Below, piece after piece: positions 28,380 to 43,791 of a stretch of 64,000 nucleotides of DNA. Under the pieces are notes generated by a model, which saw nothing but the letters and a program-made list of their open reading frames with translations, was not told where the DNA came from and searched no databases. Both the position numbers and the translations under genes were made by a program. Where the stretch lies: NCBI GenBank assembly GCA_027922465.2, contig BQMF02000033.1, positions 744,001 through 808,000 of the forward strand. The letters run 5' to 3'. Source of the stretch: Turritopsis dohrnii (lineage: Eukaryota; Cnidaria; Hydrozoa; Anthoathecata; Oceaniidae). Numbering within the stretch: the first letter of the stretch is position 1; each line of letters opens with the position of its first letter.

Positions 28380-28611
28380 AGAGATAGGAAAGTGCCGATG
28401 ATAGGACAGAAATTGTGTCCCTCATAATCATATGATTTTCGGGAATTTCCCTACTATCATCTTTGTTTTCATAACTCGTATCGCGTTATGAAACGTGTTA
28501 TTATAACCACAAATTACTCATAATTGTAAACAATTAAATATCTCATTAAAAATGTAGTAAAAAGCAGTTTGTAGCAGTTTTAACTTTATAACATAAATGA
28601 GCTAATAATAC
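28380..28611 (+). repeat. Left terminal inverted repeat of the Polinton
   Basis: It is the inverse of 43781-44039. The outermost 96 bp (28380-28475) are identical to the other end. It lacks a 27-bp segment present in the right copy, and the 9-bp centre of its palindrome is flipped relative to the right copy. It ends near GAGCTAATAATAC. Confidence 0.92.
28467..28493. other. Palindromic motif with oriented 9-bp core, left copy
   Basis: TTTCATAAC / TCGTATCGC / GTTATGAAA: 9-bp perfect inverted arms around an asymmetric 9-bp centre. The same top-strand order appears at 43926-43952, although the rest of the terminal repeat is inverted there. It may be a hairpin that can flip, or a recombinase or replication-protein site. 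Confidence 0.75.
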
Positions 28612-28623
28612 ATATAACATACA

Positions 28624-29483
28624 GATCAGCGTAGTCTAGTGGATAAGAACGCTAACTTGTAACAACAAGGTCGTGTGTTCGATCCCCACTCGGTCTCTCA
28701 TGTCCTGGTTGAAAAACTTGCATGAGTGCGCACTTCCCCGCAGTTGCGTTGGATATATCGCGGTTTGGGTAGACTTCGGTCTGGGTGATTAATCACTGTC
28801 AGGTTTCACTGGTCCACAGAGACATTCAGGTTACCGTCAAATCGATCGAAATTCAACATAAACGTCAGGGCTTGAAGGTGTTAGCATGAACCTAAACTAC
28901 TATGACATGTGGCTGTCGGGATATAAACGTCAGGGCTTGAAGGTGTTAGGATGAAGCTAAACTACTATCACATGTGGCTGTCGGTACAAAAACCTAAGGG
29001 TTCTCTAAAATAGAGTTTTTTAAAATTATCGAATTTTTCCGAGAGACACCACAAGCAGACATTGAAGTCTAAATGAATGCTATAAAACTTAAGAGCGGAA
29101 TAATTTGAAATTGTGGTGAACAGGCGACAGAGTCTGCCGGAAAAGGAAGGTCTAGTGGAGCGGCTAGATTGGAACTGGATGGTGCCGTCCGCTCCCGGTA
29201 TTCACCACAAAATGTGCCAAAAGTTGTCGGGAAAAACAATGTGACTAGATGTAATATACTCGAACAGATCATGAACGGCCATCGCGTGCGTAGTAGTCGG
29301 AGTTCGTAAGTAGTCACACAAATAGTCTAAGATCTAGGGGTAGAGCTCAGAGCTGGTGGATTGGAGAAGCCAGGGTGGAGTGCTGGTTAGATCGAAGACA
29401 ATGAATTAAAAACCCTCTAGGGTATCACAACAACAACAACAACAACAAAAACCCTAGGGGGTTCTCCTAAGGGAGTTTTGTTT
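28624..29483 (+). mobile_element. tRNA-derived SINE-like sequence(s) inserted inside the left end of the Polinton
   Basis: Near 28630 the sequence AGCGTAGTCTAGTGGATAAG resembles a tRNA A box, and GTGTTCGATCCC at 28677-28688 resembles a B box. The downstream body includes a tandem duplication of about 65 bp (about 28859-28923 and 28924-28988). Two similar tail motifs, AACCTAAGGGTTCTC and AACCCTAGGGGGTTCTCC, lie near 28996 and 29450, the second after an (AAC)n run. This suggests two retroposed units or one with a duplicated tail. No Polinton gene is seen in this segment. Confidence 0.6.
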
Positions 29484-30641
29484 TCAATAATAATAATAAT
29501 ACCATATACTAAACATCGTGGTAATCGCTAAAACCAAAGCTATTTTCTCTTCTTCATGAGATGGGAGTGAATCTGTTTGACTCACTACTCTTTTATGAAC
29601 TTCCTTTTGTGAACTTTTATTTTGTGTTGGAGAGCTAGTCACGTTGGATGAAATATGATGCTCTTGCATAACATTAATCATTTTGTTTCTTCCGAGGCTC
29701 AAGTTGTCATTAGATATGAGAATTTTATTATTATAACCAGACACTCCCGACTTGATGTTTAGATTCATGTCACTAGGTAACATGTAAATACCTTGTCCAA
29801 CAGAATAATCAACTTTGCTTGAAGCGTAATTTAAAGTATCTTGATAACGTTTAATGTCATCTTGAATATCAACTCTGCGGTTAACAATGTCTTCAAAGTT
29901 ATTCATAAAAACTCTTTGAGCTGTCAAAGCACTTGAATTATTACCTAAAATAGAAGAACGAGCTGAGGCTTGCGAACTAAGAAGAAGATAAGCATATGCT
30001 CTAACACTCTCTGAAATTTTTACAAGACCTGTTTTTGTAAAGCCTTTAGATTTTTCTATAATCCACCGTGTCATGGAGTCGTCTGTGAAATAACTCAGAC
30101 CTGGCGTTGGATAGTCTCTACGTCTTTTTTGATACGAGCTATAAAAATATTGCCCTTTATATTTTTTAGGATCAGAATCGACACCATATTCACTACAGAT
30201 TTTTAAAAACTCTTCTTTGTTATAAGGATTATCGTATTGGTTGAAACTATCTTCAAAAGGTAGAGGTGTCTGCAGACGCTTAATGATTCGTCTAATGTGA
30301 TAATAGACGTGAAAACGATATACTGCTCGTATCATAGGAGTAGAGCGACCTTCTTTCAGGTGTTCAGAACTGACCCCACAAGCACTTGAAGCACACCAAG
30401 TGACAAAATTGAGTTGGGTTTGCCATAATTTAAATGGTTGTTCCTGCCAAATTTTCATACGTTGATCATTTTCATCCATTTCGTAATTAGTAAATATATT
30501 TGGAAAAGTTGCAGGGAAAGAACCGCTCTCAGAGACGATAATTGTTTGTTTGTATAAATCTTTAGCATTCAATATCTGAAGGTATTGCCCTCCATTTGGT
30601 TTATAAAGCGCGTTGGGAACATATTTAAAAATATTCTCCAT
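29484..30641 (-). CDS. Polinton accessory protein with C-terminal membrane segment, 385 aa
   Basis: Starts MENIFKYVPNALYKPNGG. No enzyme motif was recognised. The N-terminal two-thirds look globular, with aromatic and basic stretches such as YHIRRIIKRL and YQKRRRDYP. The C-terminal third is Ser/Asn-rich and ends in a hydrophobic segment (IALVLAITTMFSIW) followed by five Tyr from a TAT run and a TGA stop. The stop lies at the edge of the SINE-like insertion, so the original 3' end may have been altered. It is transcribed outward, away from the adjacent candidate minor capsid gene with only 39 bp between starts, implying a shared bidirectional promoter. It may be a virion or membrane protein; the function is not known. 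Confidence 0.75.
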   Translation of the reverse strand: MENIFKYVPNALYKPNGGQYLQILNAKDLYKQTIIVSESGSFPATFPNIFTNYEMDENDQRMKIWQEQPFKLWQTQLNFVTWCASSACGVSSEHLKEGRSTPMIRAVYRFHVYYHIRRIIKRLQTPLPFEDSFNQYDNPYNKEEFLKICSEYGVDSDPKKYKGQYFYSSYQKRRRDYPTPGLSYFTDDSMTRWIIEKSKGFTKTGLVKISESVRAYAYLLLSSQASARSSILGNNSSALTAQRVFMNNFEDIVNRRVDIQDDIKRYQDTLNYASSKVDYSVGQGIYMLPSDMNLNIKSGVSGYNNKILISNDNLSLGRNKMINVMQEHHISSNVTSSPTQNKSSQKEVHKRVVSQTDSLPSHEEEKIALVLAITTMFSIWYYYYY

Positions 30642-30680
30642 TATTATTTAATAATATTATCTTCTATTTAATACAAGAAA

Positions 30681-31241
30681 ATGTATATCACAGCAAATCT
30701 CGTAAGGGGTGAGAAGACCATATATCTACCTTACCCCATTCGAAATATGGACGGTTCGAAAGAGATCGCATTATGTGAGATATTTGGAGACACCTTCACC
30801 TATCAAATCACAACACCGATAACATTGAAAACGTCTGATGATGGGAAAGTTGAAAAGTCGATACCAAAACGAAAATTCACTGGCAGAGAATTGAACGCGT
30901 TTTTAGCAGGCACCTTTTTAGAAGGTGATATAGAACTTAAACCATTAGGCAAATACTCTCAAGTAATCAGAACAAATACGCTAGCTAAAATAACCAAAAT
31001 GAATTTACATCTCTCTGAACTCGACAACACTCAAAATCTTGAGGATGGAAAGCTAAGTGATATTCTACTAACTATTCCCATCGATAAATATAGTGACTTT
31101 ACACATACTGAGCCTAAAAATCTCCATTACAAAAAACTAAAAAACGGTGTATTCCAGTCTCTCACATTGAGACTGACAGATCAGCATGGTGGTATACTAA
31201 AAGAAGATCTGGGTACAACCGTTGTTTTGTACATCCGCTAA
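30681..31241 (+). CDS. Candidate minor capsid (penton-like, single jelly-roll) protein, 186 aa
   Basis: It lies directly upstream of the major capsid gene, where Polintons and adintoviruses usually encode the minor capsid/penton protein, and has the usual small size. The sequence is rich in short beta-like segments. It ends in a pattern typical of jelly-roll capsid proteins: a Y-x-x-L-x-x-G turn, then SLTLRLTDQHGGIL and GTTVVLYIR. The assignment rests on position, size and this pattern rather than on a unique motif. A structure prediction showing an eight-stranded single jelly roll would confirm it. The start ATG is the first in frame and leaves a short 5' gap to the divergent gene. Confidence 0.65.
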   Translation: MYITANLVRGEKTIYLPYPIRNMDGSKEIALCEIFGDTFTYQITTPITLKTSDDGKVEKSIPKRKFTGRELNAFLAGTFLEGDIELKPLGKYSQVIRTNTLAKITKMNLHLSELDNTQNLEDGKLSDILLTIPIDKYSDFTHTEPKNLHYKKLKNGVFQSLTLRLTDQHGGILKEDLGTTVVLYIR

Positions 31242-31285
31242 ACCGAGATAAAAAGTAAAAAATTAATTATATATCATAATTAATA

Positions 31286-32602
31286 ATGGAGTATGGAAAG
31301 AGGTTAAATCCAGAACGTTCACTTAGAACTGCTCGCGGTGTAAAAGGTTCTCGTCAAAAAGTAATTGTCACACACAATCCGAGTGAGATCGATCAAAATC
31401 AGCTATTATTGGTTAGGTTTCCAAATTTAGGAAGTGATGATGTCATTATCCCAGGAACAACGAATCTAAGTTTTGATATTGAACTCGAATCGAAAGCTGA
31501 CTCAAAAAGAACATTGGTCAGTAACATTGGGAGAGCTATCGTTAAAAAGTTGGCTGTCAAGTTCGAAGGTAACGAGATATTGAGTATCGATGACTTTGAT
31601 CTTTTTGGGTGTTACAGAGATTTATGGTTAACCAAGTTTGAAAAGAGAAACGCGATAAGACAGGGTATCATCATCGACGATGGGTGTACAGAGAATTGTA
31701 TGAAATTGAGGACTGGTGCTTCTGATAAAGACACCACTGATGCAGAAGACAAAGCCATTGCTGACACCTATAAAAACAAGTTTGTCATTCCACTCGACTT
31801 TGAGATGCTAGATAGTACTATCCCATATTATCAAGCGGGTTTAGGGAATAGGTTATGCTACGAGATCACATTTAACGACTATAACCGAGTTATTTATTCT
31901 GACCCTCTAGATACTGCTGCAGGTCAAAAACGTAACCCAGACGGTAAATACAAAATATCTAACATCTCACTTGAATATGAGCTTGTGACACAACCCAAGT
32001 TGGCTAGACAAATCGCTTCTGAATATCAAAACATGGCTTTGCTCTATGATAGGATTTTGCGGCACAGACAAATTAGAGTAAACAAGTCAGACACAACGTG
32101 GAATTGGTCATTCAACACACCAGCCAAATCTTTGAAGGGTATCTTAGTTCTGTTTGAAGAAGAAAAATCCTACAAACGAGAAACCTGCAAATTCTACAAT
32201 CCAAAGATCAAAAAGGTATCAGTCATCGTCGAGGGTAAGCCTAACCAACTTTTTGCTCAAGGGATGCAGCCGTTTGAACAATACAATGAGATTTGCAAGT
32301 ATTTTGCTGAAGGAAAACCAAAAGATAATAGCGTCGGTGAAAACCGAAAGCGCTTAGGATTACATGATGTAAAAGTCTCTGATTACTTAACAAACAAGTA
32401 TGCTCTATGGTTAGATTTCAGAACAATTGATGAGAATGCCTTGCATGGGACCGGTCGAAAGATTGAAAATGCGAGTGAAGGCATCACTTTACAGATTGAA
32501 AAGACCGCTGAAACTGCAGGAAACTTAAACGCATATATATATCTAATAATGGATGCTCAATTAAACATACAAAACGGTCAATTTATGTCTACATTATATT
32601 AG
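31286..32602 (+). CDS. Polinton major capsid protein (double jelly-roll, hexon-like), 438 aa
   Basis: Size and position match the Polinton/adintovirus MCP. Recognisable family stretches are IVKKLAVKFEGNEI, FDLFGCYRDLWLT, FVIPLDFEMLDSTIPYYQ and GNRLCYEITFND. A later block reads WNWSFNTPAKSLKGILVLFEE, and the C-terminus is YIYLIMDAQLNIQNGQF. Double-jelly-roll MCPs form pseudo-hexameric capsomers of icosahedral virions. The gene sits 4 bp from the packaging ATPase, as part of a plus-strand morphogenesis block (candidate minor capsid, MCP, ATPase). The frame is intact, so capsid production is plausible. The paralogous minor capsid gene lies just upstream. Confidence 0.85.
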   Translation: MEYGKRLNPERSLRTARGVKGSRQKVIVTHNPSEIDQNQLLLVRFPNLGSDDVIIPGTTNLSFDIELESKADSKRTLVSNIGRAIVKKLAVKFEGNEILSIDDFDLFGCYRDLWLTKFEKRNAIRQGIIIDDGCTENCMKLRTGASDKDTTDAEDKAIADTYKNKFVIPLDFEMLDSTIPYYQAGLGNRLCYEITFNDYNRVIYSDPLDTAAGQKRNPDGKYKISNISLEYELVTQPKLARQIASEYQNMALLYDRILRHRQIRVNKSDTTWNWSFNTPAKSLKGILVLFEEEKSYKRETCKFYNPKIKKVSVIVEGKPNQLFAQGMQPFEQYNEICKYFAEGKPKDNSVGENRKRLGLHDVKVSDYLTNKYALWLDFRTIDENALHGTGRKIENASEGITLQIEKTAETAGNLNAYIYLIMDAQLNIQNGQFMSTLY

Positions 32603-32606
32603 TAAA

Positions 32607-33212
32607 ATGGATACACTTTACATGAAAGAGCCTCACACAGCATTATTCATTGGACCAACATCGTGCGGTAAAACGGATCGTGTTGTAAAATTATTAGAAA
32701 ATGAATACTTTGATCACTTTGATTTCATCGTGATTATATGTCCCACCTTAAGGTGGAATCAGACTTACAGAGATCGAAAGTGGTTCTGGAATGACAGCTA
32801 TGTGATTTTAATTGAGCCGGAAGGATCTTTGTATGAATGGATTAAGAAAATGGACTTTTTCTGTGCTGGATACAAAACCTTATTTCTGATTGATGATATA
32901 ATAGCTGATGAAAAACTAGACAAAAAGAGACAGCCTTTGCTCGAGTTGGCAATTAGCGGTAGACATCGAAATCATTCGCTATGGTTACTTACACAATCAT
33001 ACACAGCTATACCTAAAAATTTACGACGGCAAGCTAAAATGTTATATGTGTGGTATCCAAAAGATAGGAATGATCTAACCACCATTCATGAAGAGAATGA
33101 TGTCATTGATTCGCGAGAAGAATTGAAAAATGTCAAGGAAAAACTGAAAGGAGGGAAACACACGTGCCTAGTCATGAGAATGGAACATCCGAGAACGTAT
33201 GCGATTTGTTAA
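32607..33212 (+). CDS. Genome-packaging ATPase (FtsK/HerA-type, Polinton A32-like), 201 aa
   Basis: Walker A IGPTSCGKT (about residues 15-23) and Walker B TLFLIDDII (about 91-99) are clear. A later segment, ELAISGRHRNHSLWLLTQSY, matches the sensor region of A32-like packaging ATPases (RHRN...TQ). The length matches compact Polinton ATPases. The enzyme would use ATP to translocate the element's DNA into the capsid. It begins 4 bp after the MCP stop and is probably co-transcribed with it. Downstream, a hairpin (33227-33251) separates it from a convergent minus-strand gene. Confidence 0.92.
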   Translation: MDTLYMKEPHTALFIGPTSCGKTDRVVKLLENEYFDHFDFIVIICPTLRWNQTYRDRKWFWNDSYVILIEPEGSLYEWIKKMDFFCAGYKTLFLIDDIIADEKLDKKRQPLLELAISGRHRNHSLWLLTQSYTAIPKNLRRQAKMLYVWYPKDRNDLTTIHEENDVIDSREELKNVKEKLKGGKHTCLVMRMEHPRTYAIC

Positions 33213-33226
33213 ACAGGTTGACGTTA

Positions 33227-33251
33227 TTTGTTACATGACTCTTGTAACAAA
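33227..33251. terminator. GTTACA hairpin after the ATPase gene
   Basis: TTTGTTACA / TGACTCT / TGTAACAAA: a 9-bp perfect stem with a 7-nt loop, 15 bp after the ATPase stop and 22 bp from the end of the convergent gene. Its stem shares GTTAC with hairpins at 35334 and 39191. A role as a bidirectional 3'-end signal is an inference. Confidence 0.5.
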
Positions 33252-33272
33252 AACTATAAGACTCCTATAAGA

Positions 33273-33521
33273 CTACTGTAAGACTGTTATAAGACTACTG
33301 TAAGAGATTAATTTACGTCTCAATACAGGTTCTAGAATTTTACCAATATGTTTAATCCTCGATTCAAAGCGTACTCTGTCAACAGCAGCCTCTATCCAGT
33401 TACTTCTACGAGATTCACAAGCATAGATATAATGGACCATTACTTTATCATTAAAAGTAACCCTTTTTGTATCTTGATGGGAAAATATAATATCATCATC
33501 TGAGGATTCATCATCGAACAT
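33273..33521 (-). CDS. PPP1R15 (GADD34/CReP)-like PP1-eIF2alpha adaptor, 82 aa
   Basis: An acidic N-terminus (MFDDESSDDD) leads into KRVTFNDKVMVHYI (residues 19-32). Its RVTF is the PP1-docking RVxF motif followed by the hydrophobic stretch of PPP1R15 proteins. About 19 residues on comes W42, then DRVRFESRI (48-56). This fits the W...DRxRFxxRI signature by which PPP1R15 proteins bind eIF2alpha. In that family the two modules bring protein phosphatase 1 to phosphorylated eIF2alpha and restore translation. Several large DNA viruses carry equally short homologues. It lies inside the Polinton, convergent with the ATPase gene. The assignment is by motif order and spacing. An 82-residue match could be chance, but both modules in the right order make that unlikely. 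Confidence 0.75.
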   Translation of the reverse strand: MFDDESSDDDIIFSHQDTKRVTFNDKVMVHYIYACESRRSNWIEAAVDRVRFESRIKHIGKILEPVLRRKLISYSSLITVLQ

Positions 33522-33586
33522 AATTGTTTAAGTAAACAATGTTTATTTATTTAACAATGTTAGAATATATTATTAAACATCATCAT

Positions 33587-33624
33587 CCTCTTATAATTAT
33601 TTTGTCTTACATAATTATAAGAGG
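33587..33624. promoter_or_regulatory. 14-bp perfect inverted repeat between divergent genes
   Basis: CCTCTTATAATTAT / TTTGTCTTAC / ATAATTATAAGAGG. It lies between the start of the minus-strand PPP1R15-like gene and the plus-strand gene at 33699. It is surrounded by many TTATAAGA and ACTCTTATA words (33250-33300, 33620-33680). Being in a divergent intergenic region, it may be a promoter, operator or replication element. No function is demonstrated. Confidence 0.45.
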
Positions 33625-33698
33625 ACAGCAAACTCTTATACAACAAATTTCAACAAAATTATAAGAGAGTATAAGAAAATTATAACAAACACAACAAA

Positions 33699-34343
33699 AT
33701 GATAGAATATGTCAACTTCGTGTTATTAAGCATACTGCTGATCTCGCTAGTTTACTTTTATTTTGTGTTAAAAAAATACCTCTCTCTAATAAAAATGGTG
33801 GAAACAGCGATCGATAATTTAATCAACCAGAGTTATGATGTTCCGGGTGAATTTCCACCTTCAGATGGTAAAAGACAAAAATTACTCGAGTGTGTCTTAA
33901 CTGGAAATAGCAAGCTATACTTAGGGAAAATGTACACGGAAGAGCAAATTAACAAACTCAAAGATGAAGAAGTAGAAAAACTTTTTAGTATCTACGAGGC
34001 TAAACTATCAGGTCAAATGGTAAAATCCTTGGGGAAATCACTGATACGTATTTATTCCATGGGGGCTTGTGCAACGTTAGGAATAAACAATCAAGATGCG
34101 TTGAGCAATGACCTGGAAACTGACCCCTTCTTAAACTCTGCCCTTCAAAGATTTACATGTGACTTATATTATAAATTCGGCTCATTATTAGCACCACTCA
34201 GTGTTGGACTTATTACCGGGAGGCATTATATCAATGAAAGGAATTTAAATAAATCCGATGATAATATAAATACAGCAGATAATAAAAATGTCAGAAGAAC
34301 AGACTCCCATTCAAGTGACAACGAAGAACCCAAAAAAGGTTGA
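33699..34343 (+). CDS. Polinton membrane-anchored protein, 214 aa
   Basis: An N-terminal hydrophobic segment (residues 5-25, FVLLSILLISLVYFYFVL) is a likely signal anchor. The rest is a globular domain with GKMYTEEQINKLKDEEVEKL, AKLSGQMVKSLGKSLIRIYS and FLNSALQRFTCDLYYKFGS. A polar C-terminal tail follows. No enzyme motif was recognised. Its position among small virion-type genes suggests a membrane or virion protein. Its last 56 bp overlap the start of the next gene in another frame, implying a single transcript. Confidence 0.72.
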   Translation: MIEYVNFVLLSILLISLVYFYFVLKKYLSLIKMVETAIDNLINQSYDVPGEFPPSDGKRQKLLECVLTGNSKLYLGKMYTEEQINKLKDEEVEKLFSIYEAKLSGQMVKSLGKSLIRIYSMGACATLGINNQDALSNDLETDPFLNSALQRFTCDLYYKFGSLLAPLSVGLITGRHYINERNLNKSDDNINTADNKNVRRTDSHSSDNEEPKKG

Positions 34344-34632
34344 AGCGGGTAAGAAGTTGGCGGAATACAACCGTAAAAAACGAGAACAATTAAAACAAGT
34401 GTCACCTCAAAAAGAAGTGAAGAAACCTGATGACTCTCTCACCAAACCAAATGAACAACCCATGAACTACACCTATGGTGTAGGTGGAATAATAGCTCTC
34501 GGTTTAGTTGGTGGATTTGCTTATTTTGTGTATAAAAAGAAAGATCAAATATTACCCCGTGGGTCACCATCCACCCCCCTTCCACAAAAATCTAAAATAC
34601 CAGTGAAAATCAATAAACATGAAATGGAATAA
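34288..34632 (+). CDS. Basic single-pass membrane protein of the Polinton, 114 aa
   Basis: A lysine-rich N-terminal half (KKVEAGKKLAEYNRKKREQL, then KKPDD) is followed by one transmembrane segment at about residues 65-85 (YGVGGIIALGLVGGFAYFVY) and a short basic/proline tail. The basic half could bind nucleic acid or be cytosolic. The gene starts inside the end of the preceding one. A virion or nucleoprotein role is an inference from composition and neighbours. Confidence 0.65.
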   Translation: MSEEQTPIQVTTKNPKKVEAGKKLAEYNRKKREQLKQVSPQKEVKKPDDSLTKPNEQPMNYTYGVGGIIALGLVGGFAYFVYKKKDQILPRGSPSTPLPQKSKIPVKINKHEME

Positions 34633-34660
34633 AAAGAAAAAAAATGTATATATAACAAAC

Positions 34661-34888
34661 ATGGACAAGAAAAGTATCATCAACGATTTATATCATGCAT
34701 CAGTCGTCTGCGTTTTCGCTATCGGCTACTCTATGCTAGGAAAAAAGGTGTTAAAAATGACACCTCCCTCTATTCAAAAGTTCGACTTGGAAGATACGGG
34801 AAAACTAGTTGCCATTATCGCCGCTAGTGAAGTGACAAAGGACTACTTAATCAAACAAAAGATTTTGCCTGAAAATATCAATATCTAA
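34661..34888 (+). CDS. Small hydrophobic Polinton protein, 75 aa
   Basis: The frame is open from 34619, overlapping the previous stop. MDKKSIINDLYHASV at 34661 is the more likely start because the upstream part is a lysine run. One hydrophobic segment (VVCVFAIGYSMLGKKVL) is followed by PPSIQKFDLEDTGKLVAIIAASEVTKDYLIKQ. No family was recognised. It ends 2 bp before the next start. Confidence 0.6.
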   Translation: MDKKSIINDLYHASVVCVFAIGYSMLGKKVLKMTPPSIQKFDLEDTGKLVAIIAASEVTKDYLIKQKILPENINI

Positions 34889-34890
34889 AT

Positions 34891-35313
34891 ATGGCTTCTA
34901 TCGCAATGATGTTGGGTGGAGCTTTGGCTAACGCTTTGGCTTTCACAGGATCAAGCTATCTGTTTTCAAGTTTATCCAAAGACAGAATCGATAAGGAAAG
35001 AAAACGTCATGATTTGGCCATAGAAAAATTACAAAAAGCACAGATTGAATGGCAGCAAAAACGACAGGAAAGGATCGATTTCATCAATAAGCAGCTCATG
35101 CTCGAAAAGAAGGCTGATTCAAAATTCATAGAGCTAAATGATGCAATGAGAGAGTACAATAGGGTGTTTAGTAATCATCTTGAACCGCTACCACGAGAGC
35201 CTGTATTGAGCGACTTTTATACACCGAGTCATGATCAACATGAAAGGGAATTGACTTTTATAGCTATGAGTATGCTCGGTATTGGTGGAATTGTGTGGTA
35301 TTTTGAAAGATGA
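34891..35313 (+). CDS. Coiled-coil protein with hydrophobic ends, 140 aa
   Basis: An N-terminal Gly/Ala-rich hydrophobic region (MLGGALANALAFTGSSYLF) is followed by a charged helix (about residues 30-85: DRIDKERKRHDLAIEKLQKA, then QKRQERIDFINKQLMLEKKA). A conserved-looking REPVLSDFYTPSHDQHERELTF comes next, then a C-terminal transmembrane segment (FIAMSMLGIGGIVWYF). This suggests a membrane-associated structural protein. No enzymatic motif was seen. It is the last plus-strand gene before a convergent pair and is followed by a hairpin. Confidence 0.68.
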   Translation: MASIAMMLGGALANALAFTGSSYLFSSLSKDRIDKERKRHDLAIEKLQKAQIEWQQKRQERIDFINKQLMLEKKADSKFIELNDAMREYNRVFSNHLEPLPREPVLSDFYTPSHDQHERELTFIAMSMLGIGGIVWYFER

Positions 35314-35333
35314 AGACCATCAACAAAAAAAAT

Positions 35334-35358
35334 TATGTTACACGATACGTGTAACATA
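35334..35358. terminator. GTTACACG hairpin between convergent genes
   Basis: TATGTTACACG / ATA / CGTGTAACATA: an 11-bp perfect stem with a 3-nt loop in the 60-bp gap between two gene ends. It shares the GTTAC core with hairpins at 33227 and 39191. The position suggests transcript termination or 3'-end formation for both strands; this is inferred. Confidence 0.55.
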
Positions 35359-35373
35359 TACACTTTCAGATGG

Positions 35374-36657
35374 TTACCGTCTAGTGACAAGGTATGTATA
35401 GATCATCCATCCAACCCCTACAATCAGAGCCCATAAATTTTGACTCAACCAACCTACAACTTCTTTTGCTCTGTTCAATATCCATGATACGATAGACCCA
35501 ATTATTCCTGGTAAAGCCTCTGCCGCTTTAGATGCTAATCTACCTAGAAGTGATGCTAACGCTTTTAGTTTATTTTTTATCCATTCCTTTGCATCGTCCT
35601 TTTTATCATCAGGATTTTGTGAGTGACTTACTGAGCTTCCACCTCCAGATGGTAACAAAGCTTCCACAAGAACACCTATAGCCATACCAAACGCCGTCAG
35701 AATGCTAACGATTGTTATACCTTGTTCACGGAATAGTGTTCGTATCCTTTCACCTAATGAGGTATCTTTGTCGAGGACTTTAGCAATGGTTTCTTTGATG
35801 CTCGTAACTTGACTGTTTAATTTACCTTTGAGAATATCAATGTTCTCTTTCCTAGCTTTCAACTCTTCACGTAATCCATCCATTCGATCTTCGACCTCTT
35901 TTCGTTGTTCGTCCGTGTATGTTGCATCATTTTCCATTTCTTCCAACTTGTTTTTCTCCTTATCGATATGCTGTTCTATTCGAACCTTTTTCGCAACCTC
36001 TTCCTGAAGACCTCCTCGTATGTTTCTCAGCGCTTTATCCAATCCTAACAGCTCACGTACAGGATATTCAAATAGATCGCCGGTCTGAGTCATTTCATGA
36101 TCGACCGATTGTTGTCTAAGCGTTGAAATTAAATCTTCCGTACTGTTCACCACATCACCGGACATATCTTCCAACTCTACATCGGTTGCTGTTGTGATTT
36201 TAGATGTCGAAGGAAGGTCTTCTGCTATTTTATTAAGCACAGCTGCCTGTCTGGCTGAAAATTTGCTCTTAGGTATATCATACCCTAAACTGCGTAACCT
36301 GTTCTTACCCAATATGTCAGCTATAGTACCGGTAGCCCTTAGTCTTCCATTGTTTGTCAATGGTTTGCTACCGTCTTTGTAGTATAATTCACCATCTCTA
36401 ATTTCAAACTGATCGGTATATAACGTCTCAGGTTTTGACCGGTATTTTTCGGATAATCTATCATACAGCCCTTCAACTAGTTCTTTCAAAACTCTAGTAT
36501 GCAGACTGTGACCTCCAAATGATGTTTCTCGGTCACCTGATGTATGTATCTGTGCACCCGTACGGTCACCGGTCGGTATGAGAGGAAACGTCTCATCGGT
36601 TGTTTCATCTGTCGTCATCCCATGTTCTCCAAAGGGGTCAATGTCAATGTCCGCCAT
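35374..36657 (-). CDS. Large Polinton structural-type protein: coiled coil plus C-terminal membrane segments, 427 aa
   Basis: It starts MADIDIDPFGEHGMTTDET. The N-terminal part is polar, with SFGGHSLHTRVLKELVEGLY. A central heptad-like coiled coil (about residues 215-295) is followed by hydrophobic stretches (ITIVSILTAFGMAIGVLVEA at about 320-340, then an amphipathic Ala/Leu region, and LWALIVGVGWMIYTYLV at the C-terminus). The general architecture of coiled coil plus membrane-active C-terminus resembles virion membrane or penetration proteins, but no family member was identified. It faces outward from the next plus-strand gene, with a divergent gap of 56 bp. Confidence 0.7.
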   Translation of the reverse strand: MADIDIDPFGEHGMTTDETTDETFPLIPTGDRTGAQIHTSGDRETSFGGHSLHTRVLKELVEGLYDRLSEKYRSKPETLYTDQFEIRDGELYYKDGSKPLTNNGRLRATGTIADILGKNRLRSLGYDIPKSKFSARQAAVLNKIAEDLPSTSKITTATDVELEDMSGDVVNSTEDLISTLRQQSVDHEMTQTGDLFEYPVRELLGLDKALRNIRGGLQEEVAKKVRIEQHIDKEKNKLEEMENDATYTDEQRKEVEDRMDGLREELKARKENIDILKGKLNSQVTSIKETIAKVLDKDTSLGERIRTLFREQGITIVSILTAFGMAIGVLVEALLPSGGGSSVSHSQNPDDKKDDAKEWIKNKLKALASLLGRLASKAAEALPGIIGSIVSWILNRAKEVVGWLSQNLWALIVGVGWMIYTYLVTRR

Positions 36658-36713
36658 TTTATTTATTTAGAGGATAATTTATTATTATATTATGTTATAA
36701 CATCCCTCTAAAT

Positions 36714-37310
36714 ATGAGTTTTAAAATTTATCCAAAACTACCCACTGCTCCTGAGGATTTGAATGAGCAGGAAAAGTTTAACGCAAGTGTAATAAATTCT
36801 GAGTTTGAAGAGTTGATAAAACTTAAGAACAAGTTTAGTATCAAGCTCAAGAGATACAACAAGGCGATAGAACGATCGATGCTAGTAAATGCTAGCTCAA
36901 GCGCTATAACCATTGGCTCTGGCATCGGTTCAATTGCAACAGGGGCTACTATTATCGGAATACCTATTTCTGCAGGATTAGGTGGTGTAGCCCTAGCCAG
37001 CTCTATCTGTACCGGACTTACCACAGCTGTCATCAAAAGATATCAAAAGAAAGTAGAAAAAGTGATAAAATTATATGATATTGTTACATCCTCAATTTCT
37101 GTCTTCGAAACAAGTATCTCACAGGCATTGAATGATGGGAGGATCAATTACAAAGAATTCCAGGTTTTGCAGGGAACATATTACAGCGCTTTACGAAATC
37201 TCAGTTCTATAGATAGAAAGATGGAGACTGAAACCCAAAACCAATTTCAAAAAAGTTTGATGGAAGAATTTCAAAACCTGAAGAAAAGCATAAACGAAAA
37301 TGTTTCATAG
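36714..37310 (+). CDS. Polinton protein with central glycine-rich hydrophobic region, 198 aa
   Basis: Charged helices at both ends flank a Gly/Ala/Ile-rich hydrophobic hairpin (about residues 60-110; TIGSGIGSIATGATIIGIPI and GLGGVALASSICTGLTTAVI). The C-terminal half has ETSISQALNDGRINYKEFQV and a heptad-like tail. The layout suggests a membrane-inserting protein. No enzymatic motif was recognised. It is divergent from the 427-residue protein. Confidence 0.68.
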   Translation: MSFKIYPKLPTAPEDLNEQEKFNASVINSEFEELIKLKNKFSIKLKRYNKAIERSMLVNASSSAITIGSGIGSIATGATIIGIPISAGLGGVALASSICTGLTTAVIKRYQKKVEKVIKLYDIVTSSISVFETSISQALNDGRINYKEFQVLQGTYYSALRNLSSIDRKMETETQNQFQKSLMEEFQNLKKSINENVS

Positions 37311-37402
37311 GATGTGTGGTCGTCATTTGAAAAAGTGATTAATGAAATGAAATGAAACTTATATAAAGACATATGATGATCATAAGTATATATATATAGA
37401 CA

Positions 37403-37741
37403 ATGGAATTCCCAACAGTTGCAACATTTGAACAAAACATGGAACAAATTACTCCAATCACAAAGTGGAGAGAGCTAACTGAAAACGTGATTTATCATGT
37501 TAAATCTGTGGTTGAGATAGACACACCCGCATCTGAATTTGGGTCTGGAAAAGCTATGTATGCAGAGGTCCAAGACAGAACAGGAAATTTATATAAGACA
37601 TGGTTGCCTGCAAGACTTTGCGTTGAGTTGAAGGATTATGGTTGGAATTCTAGAGAAGCCTTTGTCAGACCGAAGGGGCTCAAACAATCTGAAAAGAATC
37701 CTGAAAGACAATTCTTTGATTATGACATTATGTGGCACTAA
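37403..37741 (+). CDS. Small beta-rich protein, possibly OB-fold DNA-binding, 112 aa
   Basis: The core reads VIYHVKSVVEIDTPASEFGS, then MYAEVQDRTGNLYKTWLPARLC, then FVRPKGLKQSEKNPERQFFDYDI. The alternating beta pattern, and its place next to the integrase and polymerase side of the element, would fit an OB-fold single-strand DNA-binding protein. That is a guess from pattern, not a recognised motif. A TATATATATATA run lies 4-16 bp before the ATG. It is convergent with the integrase gene. Confidence 0.6.
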   Translation: MEFPTVATFEQNMEQITPITKWRELTENVIYHVKSVVEIDTPASEFGSGKAMYAEVQDRTGNLYKTWLPARLCVELKDYGWNSREAFVRPKGLKQSEKNPERQFFDYDIMWH

Positions 37742-37761
37742 ACCTCGTTGCTAGACGACTC

Positions 37762-37786
37762 ATCTTTACTTGTTTCTAGTAAAGAT
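37762..37786. terminator. Hairpin between convergent OB-like and integrase genes
   Basis: ATCTTTACT / TGTTTCT / AGTAAAGAT: a 9-bp perfect stem in the 61-bp gap between two gene ends. Its sequence differs from the GTTAC group, but its position is the same. Confidence 0.45.
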
Positions 37787-37802
37787 ACTTTGTATTTACA
37801 GT

Positions 37803-38786
37803 TCACCAACCTTGCACATAATCAGGAGGTAGCTCTGTATCCTCAGGTATCAGCATCAGCTCTTCTTTCACAAAAGCTCGTTCAGGTCCATCTTGAAGGT
37901 AATACATTACACGGTTACCAGGTTGATCTATTACCTCACTCAATCTATATGTCTTCTTTGACCATATGATATCTGTTGCTCTTTTTCGATGGTCATCGTG
38001 TTCTTCACCCGGTTGCAATAGATATCTATACAAACCATCTTGAGGTAATTTTTCTTCGGGTGGATAGCTCTCTCGTTTAGCGAGAATTACCTCTTTCAAT
38101 TTGATGGCATCTTTCGGTTTCATATTGATCATCCGAGTCTTCGTGTCGTTTAATCTATCCATAAGTTTATACAAATATTTGACCCACGTAGATGATACCT
38201 TTTCCGAATCGTTCAGTTCTTGAGCATCTTGTATTTTGAATAAATTTTCAGCAAGTATCTTGTTCAACGCCTCGACAAACGCTGTATGGGTATGTTTATA
38301 TTTAGTAGTTACTCTTTTAATTTCGACGTTATTCTTCTCCAACAGCTTTGATACATCCGCTTTGAATTCTGAACCGTTATCACATTGAAATACTTTTGGG
38401 TAGTTTAAGGGTCCAACCTTGTAGATGTCTTCAATCATAGCGGCAACCTCTTTCGCTCTCTTAGTATTCAAAGGTCGAGCCACCTTATAGCGTGAAGCAA
38501 CATCGATACCGGATAAGATGTACTTGTATTTATTACCATATAGCATATCACTAGGCATATACAATATATCAAATTGATGAATCTCATTCGGTTTAGTTAC
38601 CTCATAATGTGGACGTTCGATCCTTTTCGTTGTCGGTAGATGTACCTGCCACAAAGCTTGTTTTGATAGCCACTTCTTAATTTCCTTCGGTTTGAAACCA
38701 AATCCTCTTAGATTGCGAACAGCCTTTTGTCCTTTCCATAAGTTTTGAGGTTGATAATAAATCTCTTGAAGTTTAGTGTCTGACAT
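37803..38786 (-). CDS. Retroviral-type (DDE) integrase of the Polinton, 327 aa
   Basis: The catalytic core shows Asp73 (HQFDILYMP), Asp136 (FQCDNGSEF) and Glu172 (AFVEALNKILAENL), giving D-x62-D-x35-E. That is the spacing of retroviral and Polinton integrases. IDVASRYKVARPL is also typical. The C-terminus (TYRLSEVIDQPGNRVMYYL, AFVKEELMLIP) looks like the small beta-barrel/chromodomain-like region of such integrases. No N-terminal HHCC zinc site is evident. The enzyme would join the AG...CT ends to host DNA, creating the short target duplication. It is convergent with the 112-residue protein and divergent from the SAP gene. Confidence 0.95.
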   Translation of the reverse strand: MSDTKLQEIYYQPQNLWKGQKAVRNLRGFGFKPKEIKKWLSKQALWQVHLPTTKRIERPHYEVTKPNEIHQFDILYMPSDMLYGNKYKYILSGIDVASRYKVARPLNTKRAKEVAAMIEDIYKVGPLNYPKVFQCDNGSEFKADVSKLLEKNNVEIKRVTTKYKHTHTAFVEALNKILAENLFKIQDAQELNDSEKVSSTWVKYLYKLMDRLNDTKTRMINMKPKDAIKLKEVILAKRESYPPEEKLPQDGLYRYLLQPGEEHDDHRKRATDIIWSKKTYRLSEVIDQPGNRVMYYLQDGPERAFVKEELMLIPEDTELPPDYVQGW

Positions 38787-38889
38787 TTTTTATTTATAAA
38801 CAACGTTTTATTTTAGCTCATTTTATTAAAAAAATGACACGAGAAAAGTGACTTAAACGTTGTTTATTATCTTTATATAAAGAATAAAC

Positions 38890-39171
38890 ATGACCGACAA
38901 AACAGAATCAGATTACCAATCAATGACTCGTGACGCTTTACGAAAATTATGTGCGTCACGAAAAATAAAATATGTTTACCTAATGAACAAAGCTAAATTA
39001 CTCGATGTACTTGAGAAAAATGACGAGGATCCATCTTATATTCTCGATCCTGATACGAAACAAACGGTTAATAAATACTGTTTAAACTGGATAAAAAATA
39101 ACAGAGAAAAATATCTCAGCTCTCAAAAACGTTATAACGCTAAGAGAGAGAAGAGAGTTTACAAAAAATAA
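38890..39171 (+). CDS. SAP-motif protein, 93 aa
   Basis: Residues about 12-44 (MTRDALRKLCASRKIKYVYL then MNKAKLLDVLEKND) match the helix-turn-helix SAP motif that binds AT-rich DNA. The C-terminal part is basic (NKYCLNWIKNNREKYLSSQK and a KREKRVYKK tail). It may bind the element's termini or chromatin. A second SAP motif opens the adjacent polymerase. It is divergent from the integrase gene. Confidence 0.7.
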   Translation: MTDKTESDYQSMTRDALRKLCASRKIKYVYLMNKAKLLDVLEKNDEDPSYILDPDTKQTVNKYCLNWIKNNREKYLSSQKRYNAKREKRVYKK

Positions 39172-39190
39172 ATAAATAAATTGACCTCGC

Positions 39191-39219
39191 TTTTGTTACT
39201 TAATCAACGAGTAACAAAA
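39191..39219. terminator. GTTACT hairpin between the SAP and polymerase genes
   Basis: TTTTGTTACT / TAATCAACG / AGTAACAAAA: a 10-bp perfect stem with a 9-nt loop, 20 bp after the SAP gene stop and 70 bp before the polymerase start. It is the third member of the GTTAC-core hairpin group in the element. Confidence 0.5.
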
Positions 39220-39289
39220 ATGATAATGATAATTGAAAATTTTAAAAAGTGATTTAAAAAGATATAATCGTGGTATTATATATTACAAC

Positions 39290-42200
39290 ATGACTACTAG
39301 AAATACTGTTGTTGAATTAAAAGCTATCGCGAGAGAGCGTGGTATACCTGGCTACTCAAAACTCAGAAAAGCTGAGTTGATCGAATTATTAGCAACCCCA
39401 CCTGTCCGACCTGTTCCACTACCAAGACCTACTAGGTTTAACCGACCTGTTCCACCACCAAGACCTGTTCCAATTATTCCTACCCAACAAGATATGGATT
39501 TGTTTGAACAGCAAGAAATGGCAAAAAATAGACCTGTTGTGAAAAGCAAGTTGAATGAATGGAGAGGTTGGTTAATAAATCATGTACCTAAAGCTATTAA
39601 GGAGAAAGTGAGTGGCGCTTTCAGAGAGATGAAGAAGAAGATTCTCAATCTCTACAAGAGGAAGAATGGTGAAAAAGATGAAAAATTGGTGGAACCTGAA
39701 GCGTTTGTCCCCATTGAAATGGCGTTTGAGGGTTCTTACAAAAGGTTCAAGATAAACTCAGATGGAAAAAAGGATGTTGATTCGTTTCTCGAAAAGGTTC
39801 GACCCATTTTAAGCGATCTGATTATGAGAGAACTCAAAAACAAAAAATCAATAAAAATTCAAGCAACTGTGTGGATCAAATGGAGAAAAGAAGATCTATC
39901 CAATCCTGAAGCAACAATCTATGTTGATAAGGCGTTCAATAGCAATATGGAAACAATTCACAATGAAAGCGATATATCTGATGTTATTAATAAGATGTTC
40001 AATAAGATAATCGAACAGGTTGAAAACCCTGCATTACCTCAATCCGGCTTTGTTATCGATAAAATTTTAAATATTGATGTGGACTTTCACAAACTAAAAC
40101 TAACGAGAGGCAGCTCTTACTTACCGCTACCTAAGAATTTCAGCGGAAAACGATCTGTTATCAATCCACATAACGAAGATGATGAAGAATGCTTCAAATG
40201 GGCTGTTATCGCAGCTCTCAATCATGATAAGATCGATAATCATCCTGAACGAATCTCGGCTCTCAAAAAGTATGATAAATATAATTGGGAGGGTTTATCG
40301 TTTCCAATGGCGCTAAATAAAATAGATTTGTTTGAGAGGAGGAACTCTGATATCGCTGTGCATGTTTTGACAAAAGATGTGACAGAAGGTATCTATATGT
40401 GTCGCAAGTCGAAGCATCTTGATCGCAAAGAAACGGTTGTTTTGTTTTTATTATGTGAAGAGGAAAAGAGACATTATATAGCTGTAAAGAACTTGAGTGG
40501 TGTCTTGAGTAAGGTCAACTCGAATCATGAACATAAGGAGCATTATTGTTTGAATTGTCTCAATGGATTCTTAAGTGAGAAAACACGAGATGAACACTTT
40601 GAATATTGTAAAAATAATGATGTCGCTAAGATTGAGATGCCAAATGAGGGTAGCACCGTTAAGTTTCATGACGGTCAGTACCAGCTCAAAGCTCCTTTCA
40701 TAATGTATGCTGATTTCGAAGCTTTGTCAAAAGAGGTTTGTAAAGAACCGCGTAGCGTTATTGGATCATCCACTAAAAAGGTTGGTATACATATCCCCAC
40801 AGGCTTCTGTTGTTATAGCAAATTTGCTCATGGTGAAGTTTCAGACCCTCTAACGCTTTATCGAGGTGAAGACTGTGTTTTACGTTTCGTGGATCATGTG
40901 GTAGGTGAAGTGAAAAGGCTATACAACATGTTTCCTAAACAAAGAATGCGAAACCTCACATATGAAGAGGAACAAGGATTTATCGATTCAGATAAGTGCC
41001 ACATATGTATGAAAGAATTTGAAAAAGATAATATTAAGGTTAGGGATCACTGTCATTTTACTGGTAAATTTCGTGGAGCTGCACATCAGTCTTGTAATAT
41101 CCGTTACAAAGTGCCTAAATACATTCCGATCGTCTTTCACAATCTGAGCGGATATGATGCTCATCTATTTATCAAAGAACTAGCCAAACAGTATGGAGAT
41201 GAAGGGATTGCCGTCATCGCTGAAAACAAAGAAAAATATATCTCTTTCTCATTGGATGTTAAGGTTGGTGAATACATTGATAAAAATGGGGTGACTAGGG
41301 TTCAAAAGATACAGTTGAGATTCATCGATAGCGTGCGTTTCATGGCTAGTAGTCTGGATAACTTGGTAAACAATCTATCTGACGATCAGTGTAAAAACCT
41401 TCGAAAATTCTTCAAGGGTGATGAGCAGTTCAAACTATTGAGAAGAAAAGGAGTTTATCCTTATGAATACATTGATTCTTTTGATAAGTTTAACGAAACT
41501 AAGCTCCCACCAAAAGATGCTTTTTATAGCAAGTTGAACATGAAAGGTATCAGTGATGCTGATTATACGCATGCACAGAATGTGTGGAAACACATGAAAA
41601 ATAAAAATATGGGTGCGTATCATGATCTCTATCTCAAGACAGACGTTCTATTGCTTGCTGATGTTTTTGAGACTTTTAGGGAAACATGTATAACAAACTA
41701 TAAACTGGATCCTGCACATTTTTACACTGCTCCAGGATTAGCTTGGCAAGCCTGTTTGAAAAAGACAGAGGTTGAGCTGGATCTGTTGTCAGATATGGAT
41801 ATGTTTCTGTTCGTAGAGCAAGGTATTAGAGGAGGTCTCTGTCAGGCTGTTCATAGACATGCTAAAGCTAATAACAAGTATATGGATGCTAAATATAAGA
41901 AGACTGAAGAAAGTAGCTATCTCCAATATCTTGATGCAAATAATCTATATGGATGGGCTATGATTCAGAAGCTACCGACAGGGAATTTCAAGTGGGTAGA
42001 TGCTAATAAATTTACCACCGATTTCATTTCAAAGTTGGCTGAGAAAGACGGTAAATATGGTTATCTTCTTGAAGTTGATGTGAACTATCCTCAGGAGCTT
42101 CATGATTCACATAACGATCTTCCGTTTATGCCTGAGCGAAAGAAGATCAATGGTGTAGAAAAGCTAACTCCATGTCTTTCAGACAAGAAGAACTATATTA

Positions 42201-43144
42201 TTCATATCCGTGCACTTGATCAAGCGCTGAAGCATGGTCTTGTTCTTGAGAAGGTTCATAGAGTACTGAGATTTAGACAAAGTGCATGGTTGAAGCCGTA
42301 CATCGATTTCAACACCAATTTGCGTACCAAATCAAAGAATGACTTTGAAAAGGACTTTTTCAAGCTCATGAACAATTCAGTCTTTGGTAAAACTATGGAG
42401 AATCAACGTAAACATAAAGACATACGCTTGGCTACCAAGAAAGAACAATATGAGAAGCTGGTGATGAAACCTAATTTCAAGGGTAGTATCTGTTTCAGTG
42501 AATATTTGATGGCTGCTGAAATGCAAAAGATCAAACTCGTGTTGAACAAGCCGATCTATCTGGGACCTACAGTTCTTGATTTGTCAAAGACGATTATGTA
42601 CGCGTTTCACTATGATTACATGAGACCGAAATATGGTGACAATCTAAAGCTCTGCTATATGGATACAGACAGCTTTGTCTATCACATCAAAACCGACGAC
42701 TTCTACAAAGATATCGCTGATGATGTAGCTTTGAGATTCGACACTTCAGCGTATGATGAGAAAGATAATAGACCTTTACCTATAGGTTTGAATAAGAAAG
42801 TCATCGGTCTAATGAAAGATGAGTTGGGTGGTAAGATAATGACAGAGTTTGTTGCTCTAAGAGCGAAGACATATGCATATAAACAGCTAGATGGAAAAGA
42901 AGACAAGAAGTGCAAGGGAGTCAAGAAGTGTGTAGTAAAGAAGACGATGGGGTTTGATGATTACAAGAGATGCTTGTTTGATGGTAAGAATGTTTACAGA
43001 GAACAGATGACCTTTCAATCGATTAAGCATGATGTTCACACTATAAAAACAAACAAACTCGCTCTCAATGCGGATGATGACAAAAGAACTATTGTAAAAG
43101 ATGGTATTGCTACATATGCCAGAGGACATTATAGATATGTATAA
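39290..43144 (+). CDS. Protein-primed family-B DNA polymerase with N-terminal SAP motif, 1284 aa
   Basis: The first ATG is at 39290; the open frame upstream has none. In order: SAP motif (about 4-32), proline-rich linker, a domain with DDEECFKWAVIAALNH (Cys about 301), a zinc-finger-like HYCLNCLNGF...HFEYC (about 418-440), then polymerase. ExoI is YADFEAL (Asp about 475). An endonuclease VII-like zinc module (CHICMKEF, VRDHCHFTGKFRGAAHQSCN, from about 570) precedes ExoII NLSGYDAHLFI. ExoIII is YLKTDVLLLAD. Polymerase motifs are A DANNLYGWAM, B KLMNNSVFGKTMEN and C YMDTDSFVYHI (Asp about 1125 and 1127). It would replicate the element from a terminal-protein primer. The Cys-containing N-domain may be a cysteine-protease-like (OTU-type) fold; only a structure search would tell. 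Confidence 0.95.
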   Translation: MTTRNTVVELKAIARERGIPGYSKLRKAELIELLATPPVRPVPLPRPTRFNRPVPPPRPVPIIPTQQDMDLFEQQEMAKNRPVVKSKLNEWRGWLINHVPKAIKEKVSGAFREMKKKILNLYKRKNGEKDEKLVEPEAFVPIEMAFEGSYKRFKINSDGKKDVDSFLEKVRPILSDLIMRELKNKKSIKIQATVWIKWRKEDLSNPEATIYVDKAFNSNMETIHNESDISDVINKMFNKIIEQVENPALPQSGFVIDKILNIDVDFHKLKLTRGSSYLPLPKNFSGKRSVINPHNEDDEECFKWAVIAALNHDKIDNHPERISALKKYDKYNWEGLSFPMALNKIDLFERRNSDIAVHVLTKDVTEGIYMCRKSKHLDRKETVVLFLLCEEEKRHYIAVKNLSGVLSKVNSNHEHKEHYCLNCLNGFLSEKTRDEHFEYCKNNDVAKIEMPNEGSTVKFHDGQYQLKAPFIMYADFEALSKEVCKEPRSVIGSSTKKVGIHIPTGFCCYSKFAHGEVSDPLTLYRGEDCVLRFVDHVVGEVKRLYNMFPKQRMRNLTYEEEQGFIDSDKCHICMKEFEKDNIKVRDHCHFTGKFRGAAHQSCNIRYKVPKYIPIVFHNLSGYDAHLFIKELAKQYGDEGIAVIAENKEKYISFSLDVKVGEYIDKNGVTRVQKIQLRFIDSVRFMASSLDNLVNNLSDDQCKNLRKFFKGDEQFKLLRRKGVYPYEYIDSFDKFNETKLPPKDAFYSKLNMKGISDADYTHAQNVWKHMKNKNMGAYHDLYLKTDVLLLADVFETFRETCITNYKLDPAHFYTAPGLAWQACLKKTEVELDLLSDMDMFLFVEQGIRGGLCQAVHRHAKANNKYMDAKYKKTEESSYLQYLDANNLYGWAMIQKLPTGNFKWVDANKFTTDFISKLAEKDGKYGYLLEVDVNYPQELHDSHNDLPFMPERKKINGVEKLTPCLSDKKNYIIHIRALDQALKHGLVLEKVHRVLRFRQSAWLKPYIDFNTNLRTKSKNDFEKDFFKLMNNSVFGKTMENQRKHKDIRLATKKEQYEKLVMKPNFKGSICFSEYLMAAEMQKIKLVLNKPIYLGPTVLDLSKTIMYAFHYDYMRPKYGDNLKLCYMDTDSFVYHIKTDDFYKDIADDVALRFDTSAYDEKDNRPLPIGLNKKVIGLMKDELGGKIMTEFVALRAKTYAYKQLDGKEDKKCKGVKKCVVKKTMGFDDYKRCLFDGKNVYREQMTFQSIKHDVHTIKTNKLALNADDDKRTIVKDGIATYARGHYRYV

Positions 43145-43239
43145 GATAACAAAAGGTAAGAGGTAAAAAAAAACAAAACAAAACAAAAAAGTTGAATAAA
43201 ACATTATAAAGGAATTATACACAGTAATATATAATACCT

Positions 43240-43791
43240 ATGGATATTGACAGATTAAAACGTATTACAAATCATCAAAATAAAATGATAAGCATGTTAT
43301 TATTAACACAGTTAAAAGAAAAAAATTGTGTAACTAATTTTGAGAAAGTAATGTGCGATGCGTGTTATTACGGACACATCAATGTTTTAGAATGGTTGAA
43401 AAACAATGGAGTTACTGATTTTAGTAAAGGAGTAGAATTTGCATGTTTTAACGGTCACATCGACGTTTTAGAATGGTTGAAAAACAATGGAGTTACTGAT
43501 TTTAGTAAAGGAGTAGAATTAGCATGTTTTAACGGTCACATCGACGTTTTAGAATGGTTGAAAAACAATGGAGTTACTAATTTTAGTAAAGGAGTAGAAT
43601 TTGCATGTTATTACGGTCACATCGACGTTTTAGAATGGTTGAAAAACAATGGAGTTACTGATTTTAGTAAAGGAGTAGAATTAGCATGTTTTAACGGTCA
43701 CATCGACGTTTTAGAATGGTTGAAAAACAATGGAGTTACTGATTTTAGTAAAGGAGTAGAATTTGCATGTAAAGCTGGGAGTATTATCTAG
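43240..43791 (+). CDS. Ankyrin-like protein with near-identical 27-residue repeats, 183 aa
   Basis: After about 40 unique residues come five units of the type GHIDVLEWLKNNGVTDFSKG followed by VE(F/L)AC(F/Y)(N/Y), a 27-residue period (81 bp). The GHxxVLxWLKxNG core is the ankyrin-type repeat seen widely in large DNA viruses and protists. The DNA copies are almost identical, so the array expanded or was homogenised recently. The sixth unit breaks after VEFACK, and the frame stops at a TAG inside the right terminal repeat, so it may be truncated. Ankyrin arrays mediate protein contacts; the partner is unknown. Confidence 0.78.
   Translation: MDIDRLKRITNHQNKMISMLLLTQLKEKNCVTNFEKVMCDACYYGHINVLEWLKNNGVTDFSKGVEFACFNGHIDVLEWLKNNGVTDFSKGVELACFNGHIDVLEWLKNNGVTNFSKGVEFACYYGHIDVLEWLKNNGVTDFSKGVELACFNGHIDVLEWLKNNGVTDFSKGVEFACKAGSII

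Follow-up and report, generated by a model that had tools for sequence, protein, structure and literature searches.

The PPP1R15 family and its presence in viruses are already known, one example being African swine fever virus, a large cytoplasmic DNA virus. Its DP71L protein (PDB 9nb9) consists of the family core only, as a 71-residue chain, and ICP34.5 of HSV-1 is presented in PMC8633803 as a viral PPP1R15 homologue which brings PP1 to eIF2alpha. According to PMC10998612, a core of approximately 70 residues is common to the viral and invertebrate homologues, and together with PP1 and G-actin it selectively dephosphorylates phosphorylated eIF2alpha, whereas PMC8633803 and PMC7615683, both from one group, report that the C-terminal core alone binds PP1 and does not select eIF2alpha. 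In PPP1R15A the active conformation is ascribed to Trp582, contact with the eIF2alpha beta-barrel to R591 and R594 and contact with G-actin to F592 and R595 (PMC8500838), the RVxF being the part that engages PP1. Activity is lost in the R591, W582 and F592/R595 mutants, and R594 is not one of the two with the greatest effect among three substrate mutants (PMC8500838). The R658C change in PPP1R15B lowers PP1 binding (PMC7615683).

Polinton/Maverick elements are characterised by inverted repeats, an integrase, an A32-like ATPase and a capsid protein; the first three are also found in the element described here, together with a probable capsid protein. Whether animal Polintons have an infection-like stage is still an open question in the field. 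What sets this element apart is a PPP1R15 cassette: we found no description of a PPP1R15 homologue in a Polinton in the open-licence literature searched, and the available part of a review of giant transposons (PMC6431247) describes no PPP1R15-bearing Polinton. The Polinton as a vehicle for PPP1R15, with polymorphism of the cassette, appears to be new. Here we show the homology of the gene, the conservation of its functional residues, its element context, its copy number, and its presence or absence in sister elements.

Gene order and boundaries of the Polinton

The window, i.e. the complete stretch of 64,000 nucleotides that was analysed and to whose positions all coordinates refer, contains a Polinton with the following features:

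28380..44039, no strand: whole Polinton, approximately 15.7 kb (inverted repeats and flanking direct repeat)
28380..28511, plus strand: left terminal inverted repeat, outer part (92% complementary to 43908-44039)
31286..32602, plus strand: probable major capsid protein (Capsid_N, E 0.066, under cut-off; wide conservation)
32607..33212, plus strand: A32-like packaging ATPase (PF04665, E 1.2e-7, above cut-off)
33273..33521, minus strand: predicted core-only PPP1R15-like gene, 82 aa (open frame; PF10488; R15 profile)
37803..38786, minus strand: retroviral-type (rve) integrase (PF00665, E 1.8e-10)
39290..43144, plus strand: probable protein-primed DNA polymerase B with endonuclease VII-like domain, 1284 aa (PF02945, E 7.6e-6)
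43908..44039, minus strand: right terminal inverted repeat, outer part (pairs with the left repeat)

The placement of the gene in a Polinton, proposed in the preliminary description, is supported by the terminal inverted repeats (132 nt, 92%, with two additional inner arm pairs), the integrase, the A32-like ATPase and the widely conserved probable capsid protein. On its outer sides, at 28375-28379 and 44040-44044, the element is flanked by identical 5-bp copies of AATAC in direct orientation; the target-site duplication expected for Polinton/Maverick elements is 6 bp. The probable capsid protein has 3444 homologues at E <= 0.001, with a single named protein ('hypothetical protein') among the 120 matches listed, and its position matches what we take to be the usual Polinton gene order. 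The 1284-aa protein is presumably a protein-primed polymerase B, based on motifs recognised by eye and on 40% identity to a viral contig from IMG/VR (L001), with no Pfam polymerase family and no PDB chain matching it. No adenovirus-type protease family was detected among the 10 proteins scanned with Pfam, and there were no tRNA or Rfam matches within the window. The PPP1R15-like gene lies between the end of the packaging ATPase gene (33212) and the start of the next plus-strand gene (33699).

Two other genes of the element were noted in passing. An ankyrin-repeat gene (43240-43791, plus strand), which adjoins the right inverted repeat, is a second host-like cargo gene, and consists of similar 81-bp (27-aa) repeats that are 88-90% identical except for the last copy. 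The minus-strand gene at 35374-36657 encodes a 427-aa protein with a hydrophobic C-terminal part and weak matches to coiled-coil-type Pfam families, all below cut-off.

Identity and functional residues of the 82-aa protein

The minus-strand frame at 33273-33521 is ATG-initiated and uninterrupted over 82 codons, and its product is labelled P0001. Judged by its sequence, this is a core-only protein of the PPP1R15 (GADD34/CReP) family. The only Pfam family matched is PF10488 (PP1c_bdg), with an E-value of 5.1e-6 and 26.8 bits versus a curated cut-off of 26.1, and a sister copy from the same genome reaches 33.7 bits (E 4e-8). In phmmer searches of PDB chains the top match was PPP1R15B (E 5.7e-5, ungapped across residues 14-58 of P0001), and African swine fever virus DP71L was matched over residues 17-70 (E 2.8e-4). 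We also used a profile, referred to as the R15 profile, made from 33 PF10488 proteins (P0122-P0154), of which three are named, all mammalian PPP1R15; these were retrieved with an alignment containing P0001, one sister copy and the two human cores, but P0001 itself is not in the profile. When the window was read from stop to stop in all six frames and the resulting 1194 frames with a minimum length of 30 aa were scored, P0001 obtained 33.5 bits (E 2.4e-9) and the runner-up 7.2 bits, while the highest score among 5000 shuffles of P0001 was 10.3 bits. The PF10488 match is significant, and together with the key residues kept in sister copies it supports the earlier suggestion of a PPP1R15/GADD34-like protein, which had also given the motif positions correctly (KRVTF at 19-23, W42 and DRVRFESRI at 48-56). 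The protein can be divided as follows:

33468..33521, minus strand: acidic N-terminus, residues 1-18 (DDESSDDDIIF...), from the translation; an acidic stretch is also present in P0155 and P0156
33453..33464, minus strand: predicted RVxF PP1-docking motif RVTF, residues 20-23, aligned to the PPP1R15A/B RVxF (KVTF/KVRF)
33408..33410, minus strand: R38, equivalent of PPP1R15B Arg658 (PP1 binding) by alignment
33396..33398, minus strand: W42, equivalent of PPP1R15A Trp582 and PPP1R15B Trp662 by alignment
33354..33380, minus strand: predicted helical substrate/actin segment DRVRFESRI, residues 48-56 (alignment; predicted helix)
33253..33305, no strand: minisatellite of 11/22 bp at the 3' edge of the gene, encoding the variable tail residues 73-82 (repeat analysis)

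With the C-terminal core of PPP1R15A/GADD34 and PPP1R15B/CReP the protein has in common the RVxF, the Arg658-type residue, the Trp and the A.D..RF..RI pattern, and the spacing from RVxF to Trp is that of PPP1R15B, in a gap-free alignment. P0001 and a sister copy agree with the two human proteins at eleven residues, namely V21, F23, V27, R38, W42, A46, D48, R51, F52, R55 and I56. In the alignment to PPP1R15A, R51 corresponds to R591, F52 to F592 and R55 to R595, whereas S54 stands at the place of R594; this Ser is present in 80/80 intact copies (defined below), and since human PPP1R15B has a Lys there, Arg is not a family feature at this position. Whereas the human proteins exceed 600 residues, the 82 aa leave no space for the membrane-binding N-terminus or the eIF2gamma-binding repeats, and no eIF2gamma-binding helix of the FLKAWVY type described in PMC10998612 was seen by eye in the 82 aa, such a helix belonging outside the core. 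DP71L is likewise core-only, but P0001 sits in an integrated Polinton and has the acidic N-terminus; ICP34.5 can be likened to it by description, as a viral PPP1R15 homologue. An AlphaFold2 model of P0001 contains a single helix (residues 37-81) with nothing structured before it, and has a mean pLDDT of 66, but is confident in the middle, with block means of 93 and 86 across residues 51-70, 93 being that of residues 51-60. As weak evidence, the model is compatible with a segment that would run along PP1 in extended form and become a helix where it faces actin and the substrate.

Used alone, P0001 had no homologue among 5.8 billion proteins in an exact shared-word search, which produced one candidate. 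The protein search with the alignment containing the human cores returned, next to the 33 PF10488 proteins, P0155 and P0156 (E 0.016 and 0.33), which are unannotated proteins of 111 and 96 aa from short assembled contigs. These resemble P0001 in having an acidic SSDDD near the N-terminus, KKVTFSD and RF.RRI.QI..IL.PVL, but differ in lacking the Trp and any Pfam match. While P0156 is 40% identical to P0001 over 52 residues (pairwise E 1e-7), both score just 10.2 bits against the R15 profile, which is not above the top shuffle of P0001; from their sequences, both could be additional short proteins of the P0001 lineage. When the genome was searched with P0156, the best 150 of 381 places gave a top E-value of 0.011 and frames of 74-110 aa, and many of these were PF10488 places. 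Pattern-based scans of IMG/VR with P0001, the core alignment, P0156 and capsid queries gave no confirmed relative, and there was no R15-like frame among the 198 frames of viral contig L001 (top score 5.3 bits). P0001 was without match in PHROGs. A second IMG/VR contig (L002) matched the DNA pattern for W...A.DR.RF..RI, but is phage-like and lacks a frame with RVxF plus W, and was rejected as a chance match, as were two INPHARED records of one phage at an E-value of 5.

Sister copies, cassette polymorphism and selection

The 435.9-Mb assembly (891 contigs) was searched with P0001, which gave 446 candidate places, the best 150 of which were all stop-free and 93-100% identical, and with PF10488, for which the best 150 of 413 candidates were all above cut-off. 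The host PPP1R15 was not found among these best 150 PF10488 places, which were filled by P0001-like ones; all 20 of the places picked for an odd frame length or odd match limits were also of the P0001 type. Because both lists are biased by similarity to the gene, sister elements were sampled via the ATPase instead. This search gave 942 candidates, of which the best 150 were scored, and from these we took rows 3, 6 ... 150 (50) and rows 4, 7 ... 148 (49) with the 900 or 700 bases downstream, so that the 99 sampled elements come from the 150 with the ATPase nearest to that of the window. A gene was called intact if a single match without interruption began no later than residue 6, reached at least residue 66 and included the RVxF, with an altered tail being accepted.

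Of these 99 sister elements, 80 have an intact gene, four have a broken one with split or interrupted frames, and 15 are without the cassette. As certain copies have identical or almost identical sequences, the two alleles of a single insertion may have been counted separately. Thus the frame is kept through the core in 80/84 gene-bearing copies. All 15 gene-less elements match the window on the left up to approximately 33260-33264 (three of them up to 33291-33294) and again from approximately 33609, with no match between, and are 84-97% identical to the window in the stretch downstream of approximately 33609. As these 15 elements are empty with both flanks matching, the gene is an accessory cassette, with limits as follows:

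33264..33608, no strand: accessory cassette, approximate limits (absent in 15/99 sister elements, both flanks matching)
33609..33667, no strand: stretch at the 5' cassette edge, repeated in 44-bp steps in sister copies

Similar elements seem to have acquired or shed the cassette, perhaps by way of the tandem repeats at its edges, and the empty state could be a loss or the older state. At the 5' edge the array is found in sister copies, while the window itself does not show 33609-33667 as an array; at the 3' edge, the minisatellite has extra units in sister copies, and residues 73-82 of the protein differ between copies. Several individual copies are unusual in other respects. In one (L054, G000:C333) the acidic unit DESSDDDIIF is present in three tandem copies. 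Another (L015) continues from the gene directly into the terminal region of the element (28.5-29.0 kb and the right end), and is thus internally deleted or rearranged with the cassette kept. On contig G000:C746 the PF10488 matches at 25894, 33396 and 40898 follow one another at an exact interval of 7,502 bases, which points to a partial element arrayed in tandem.

At the nucleotide level the 80 intact copies represent 60 different sequences, and at the protein level 58. Their residues V21, F23, W42, D48, F52, R55 and I56 are unchanged in 80/80, R38 and R51 are kept in 79/80, and V27 and A46 in 77/80; for V21 and F23 the RVxF was demanded by the filter for intact genes, but all 37 copies read without this filter have the RVxF as well. 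The W...DRxRFxxRI residues singled out in the preliminary description are thus conserved in sister elements. This is not accompanied by an overall purifying signal, which is absent for this gene: parsimony on the 80 intact copies gave 115 nonsynonymous and 37 synonymous changes (omega 1.03), and residues 19-67 gave 52 and 10 (omega 1.77; one-sided p for a value above 1, 0.059). Only 5/52 nonsynonymous changes in residues 19-67 affect the 11 family-invariant residues, versus 22% expected (one-sided p 0.014), and with the RVxF residues excluded this is 5/49 versus 20% expected (p 0.049). With contact residues fixed but overall dN/dS around 1, constraint is patchy.

In a biased set of 48 copies, which was picked by P0001/PF10488 score and from which L015 and L036 were dropped for rearranged or divergent flanks, pN/pS was 0.70 for the P0001 gene, 0.17 for the ATPase, 0.19 for part of the capsid gene, and 0.26 and 0.60 for the two next genes, whereas pS was 0.05 for the P0001 gene versus 0.14 for the ATPase and 0.10 for the capsid part. 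For the neighbouring gene, 43 codons at its 5' end compared in 61 copies give an omega of 0.97, and a value near 1 is therefore not peculiar to the P0001 gene. Decay after insertion presumably explains part of the missing purifying signal. A pattern of fixed contacts amid freely varying residues is one that a viral antagonist under pressure could show, but relaxed constraint accounts for it nearly as well. An estimate based on the lack of nonsense changes, given no weight here because of copy L147, put the expected number of stops at 3.1 for residues 1-67.

Proposed function and alternative explanations

We consider it probable that P0001 is a core-only PPP1R15 which, as an accessory cassette of a large Polinton family, recruits PP1 to phosphorylated eIF2alpha during replication of the element. 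By analogy with PPP1R15 biochemistry, residues 20-38 would lie along PP1 (through the RVxF and Arg38), the segment from Trp42 to Ile56 would hold the N-terminal domain of phosphorylated eIF2alpha, probably with G-actin, and PP1 would then strip the phosphate from Ser51 of eIF2alpha, so that translation might restart in a cell which had halted it on sensing the replicating element. Against this count the dN/dS of around 1 (in contrast to the low pN/pS of the ATPase), the 15/99 elements without the gene, the Ser at the R594 place, the lack of a FLKAWVY-type helix and one group's finding that the C-terminal core by itself fails to select eIF2alpha (PMC8633803, PMC7615683).

Alternatively, P0001 could derive from PPP1R15 and still bind PP1 but have lost its eIF2alpha targeting, so that it sequesters PP1 or directs it to a different substrate, for instance a protein of the virus or of chromatin. 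In the assays of one group, R15 fragments consisting of the core alone bound PP1 but did not select eIF2alpha (PMC8633803), the Ser replaces the substrate-contacting R594, and P0155 and P0156 retain RVxF and RF..RI yet lack the Trp. However, R51, F52, R55 and the hinge residue Trp42 are unneeded for mere RVxF docking and are kept in 79-80 of the 80 copies, and we regard such a loss of targeting as unlikely. The overall dN/dS and the gene-less elements would also suit a captured piece of the host PPP1R15 which travels as a passenger, copied along with the element while hardly benefiting it, if at all, and the lower synonymous divergence compared with the ATPase and capsid genes is what recent spread would give. 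Against this stand a frame kept through the core in 80/84 gene-bearing copies and changes that tend to avoid the family-invariant residues, also without those of the RVxF, and we regard a passenger as quite improbable. Finally, P0001 is short and by itself has no relative in 5.8 billion proteins, as might be the case for a random frame with a chance resemblance to a short motif, but with 33.5 bits versus 10.3 for the best of the shuffles and 7.2 for the rest of the window, and with the Pfam cut-off exceeded, chance is practically excluded.

If P0001 does act as a PPP1R15, viral acquisition of this family would be widened from large DNA viruses to the Polinton class. The family is known for defeating stress-induced translational arrest, something needed by a replicating virus but not by a silent transposon. 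More tentatively, and with rather less confidence than in the function of the gene itself, we suggest that animal Polintons may act as viruses which answer host shutdown by eIF2alpha kinases with the smallest self-contained PPP1R15 core, carried as a swappable cassette in which exposed residues diversify while the contacts with PP1, actin and substrate stay fixed. On this view P0155 and P0156 would also belong to such a lineage of short PPP1R15 proteins. As a compact natural core, P0001 is also relevant to the dispute on whether the core of approximately 70 residues alone selects eIF2alpha. Its natural copies are numerous, sister elements lacking the gene can serve as controls, and the proposed activity lends itself to a clear biochemical assay.

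Outside the element, the window also contains an open minus-strand frame of 187 aa (17851-18414) with a strong match to AAA_18 (PF13238, E 3e-39), which we take to be adenylate kinase 6-like.
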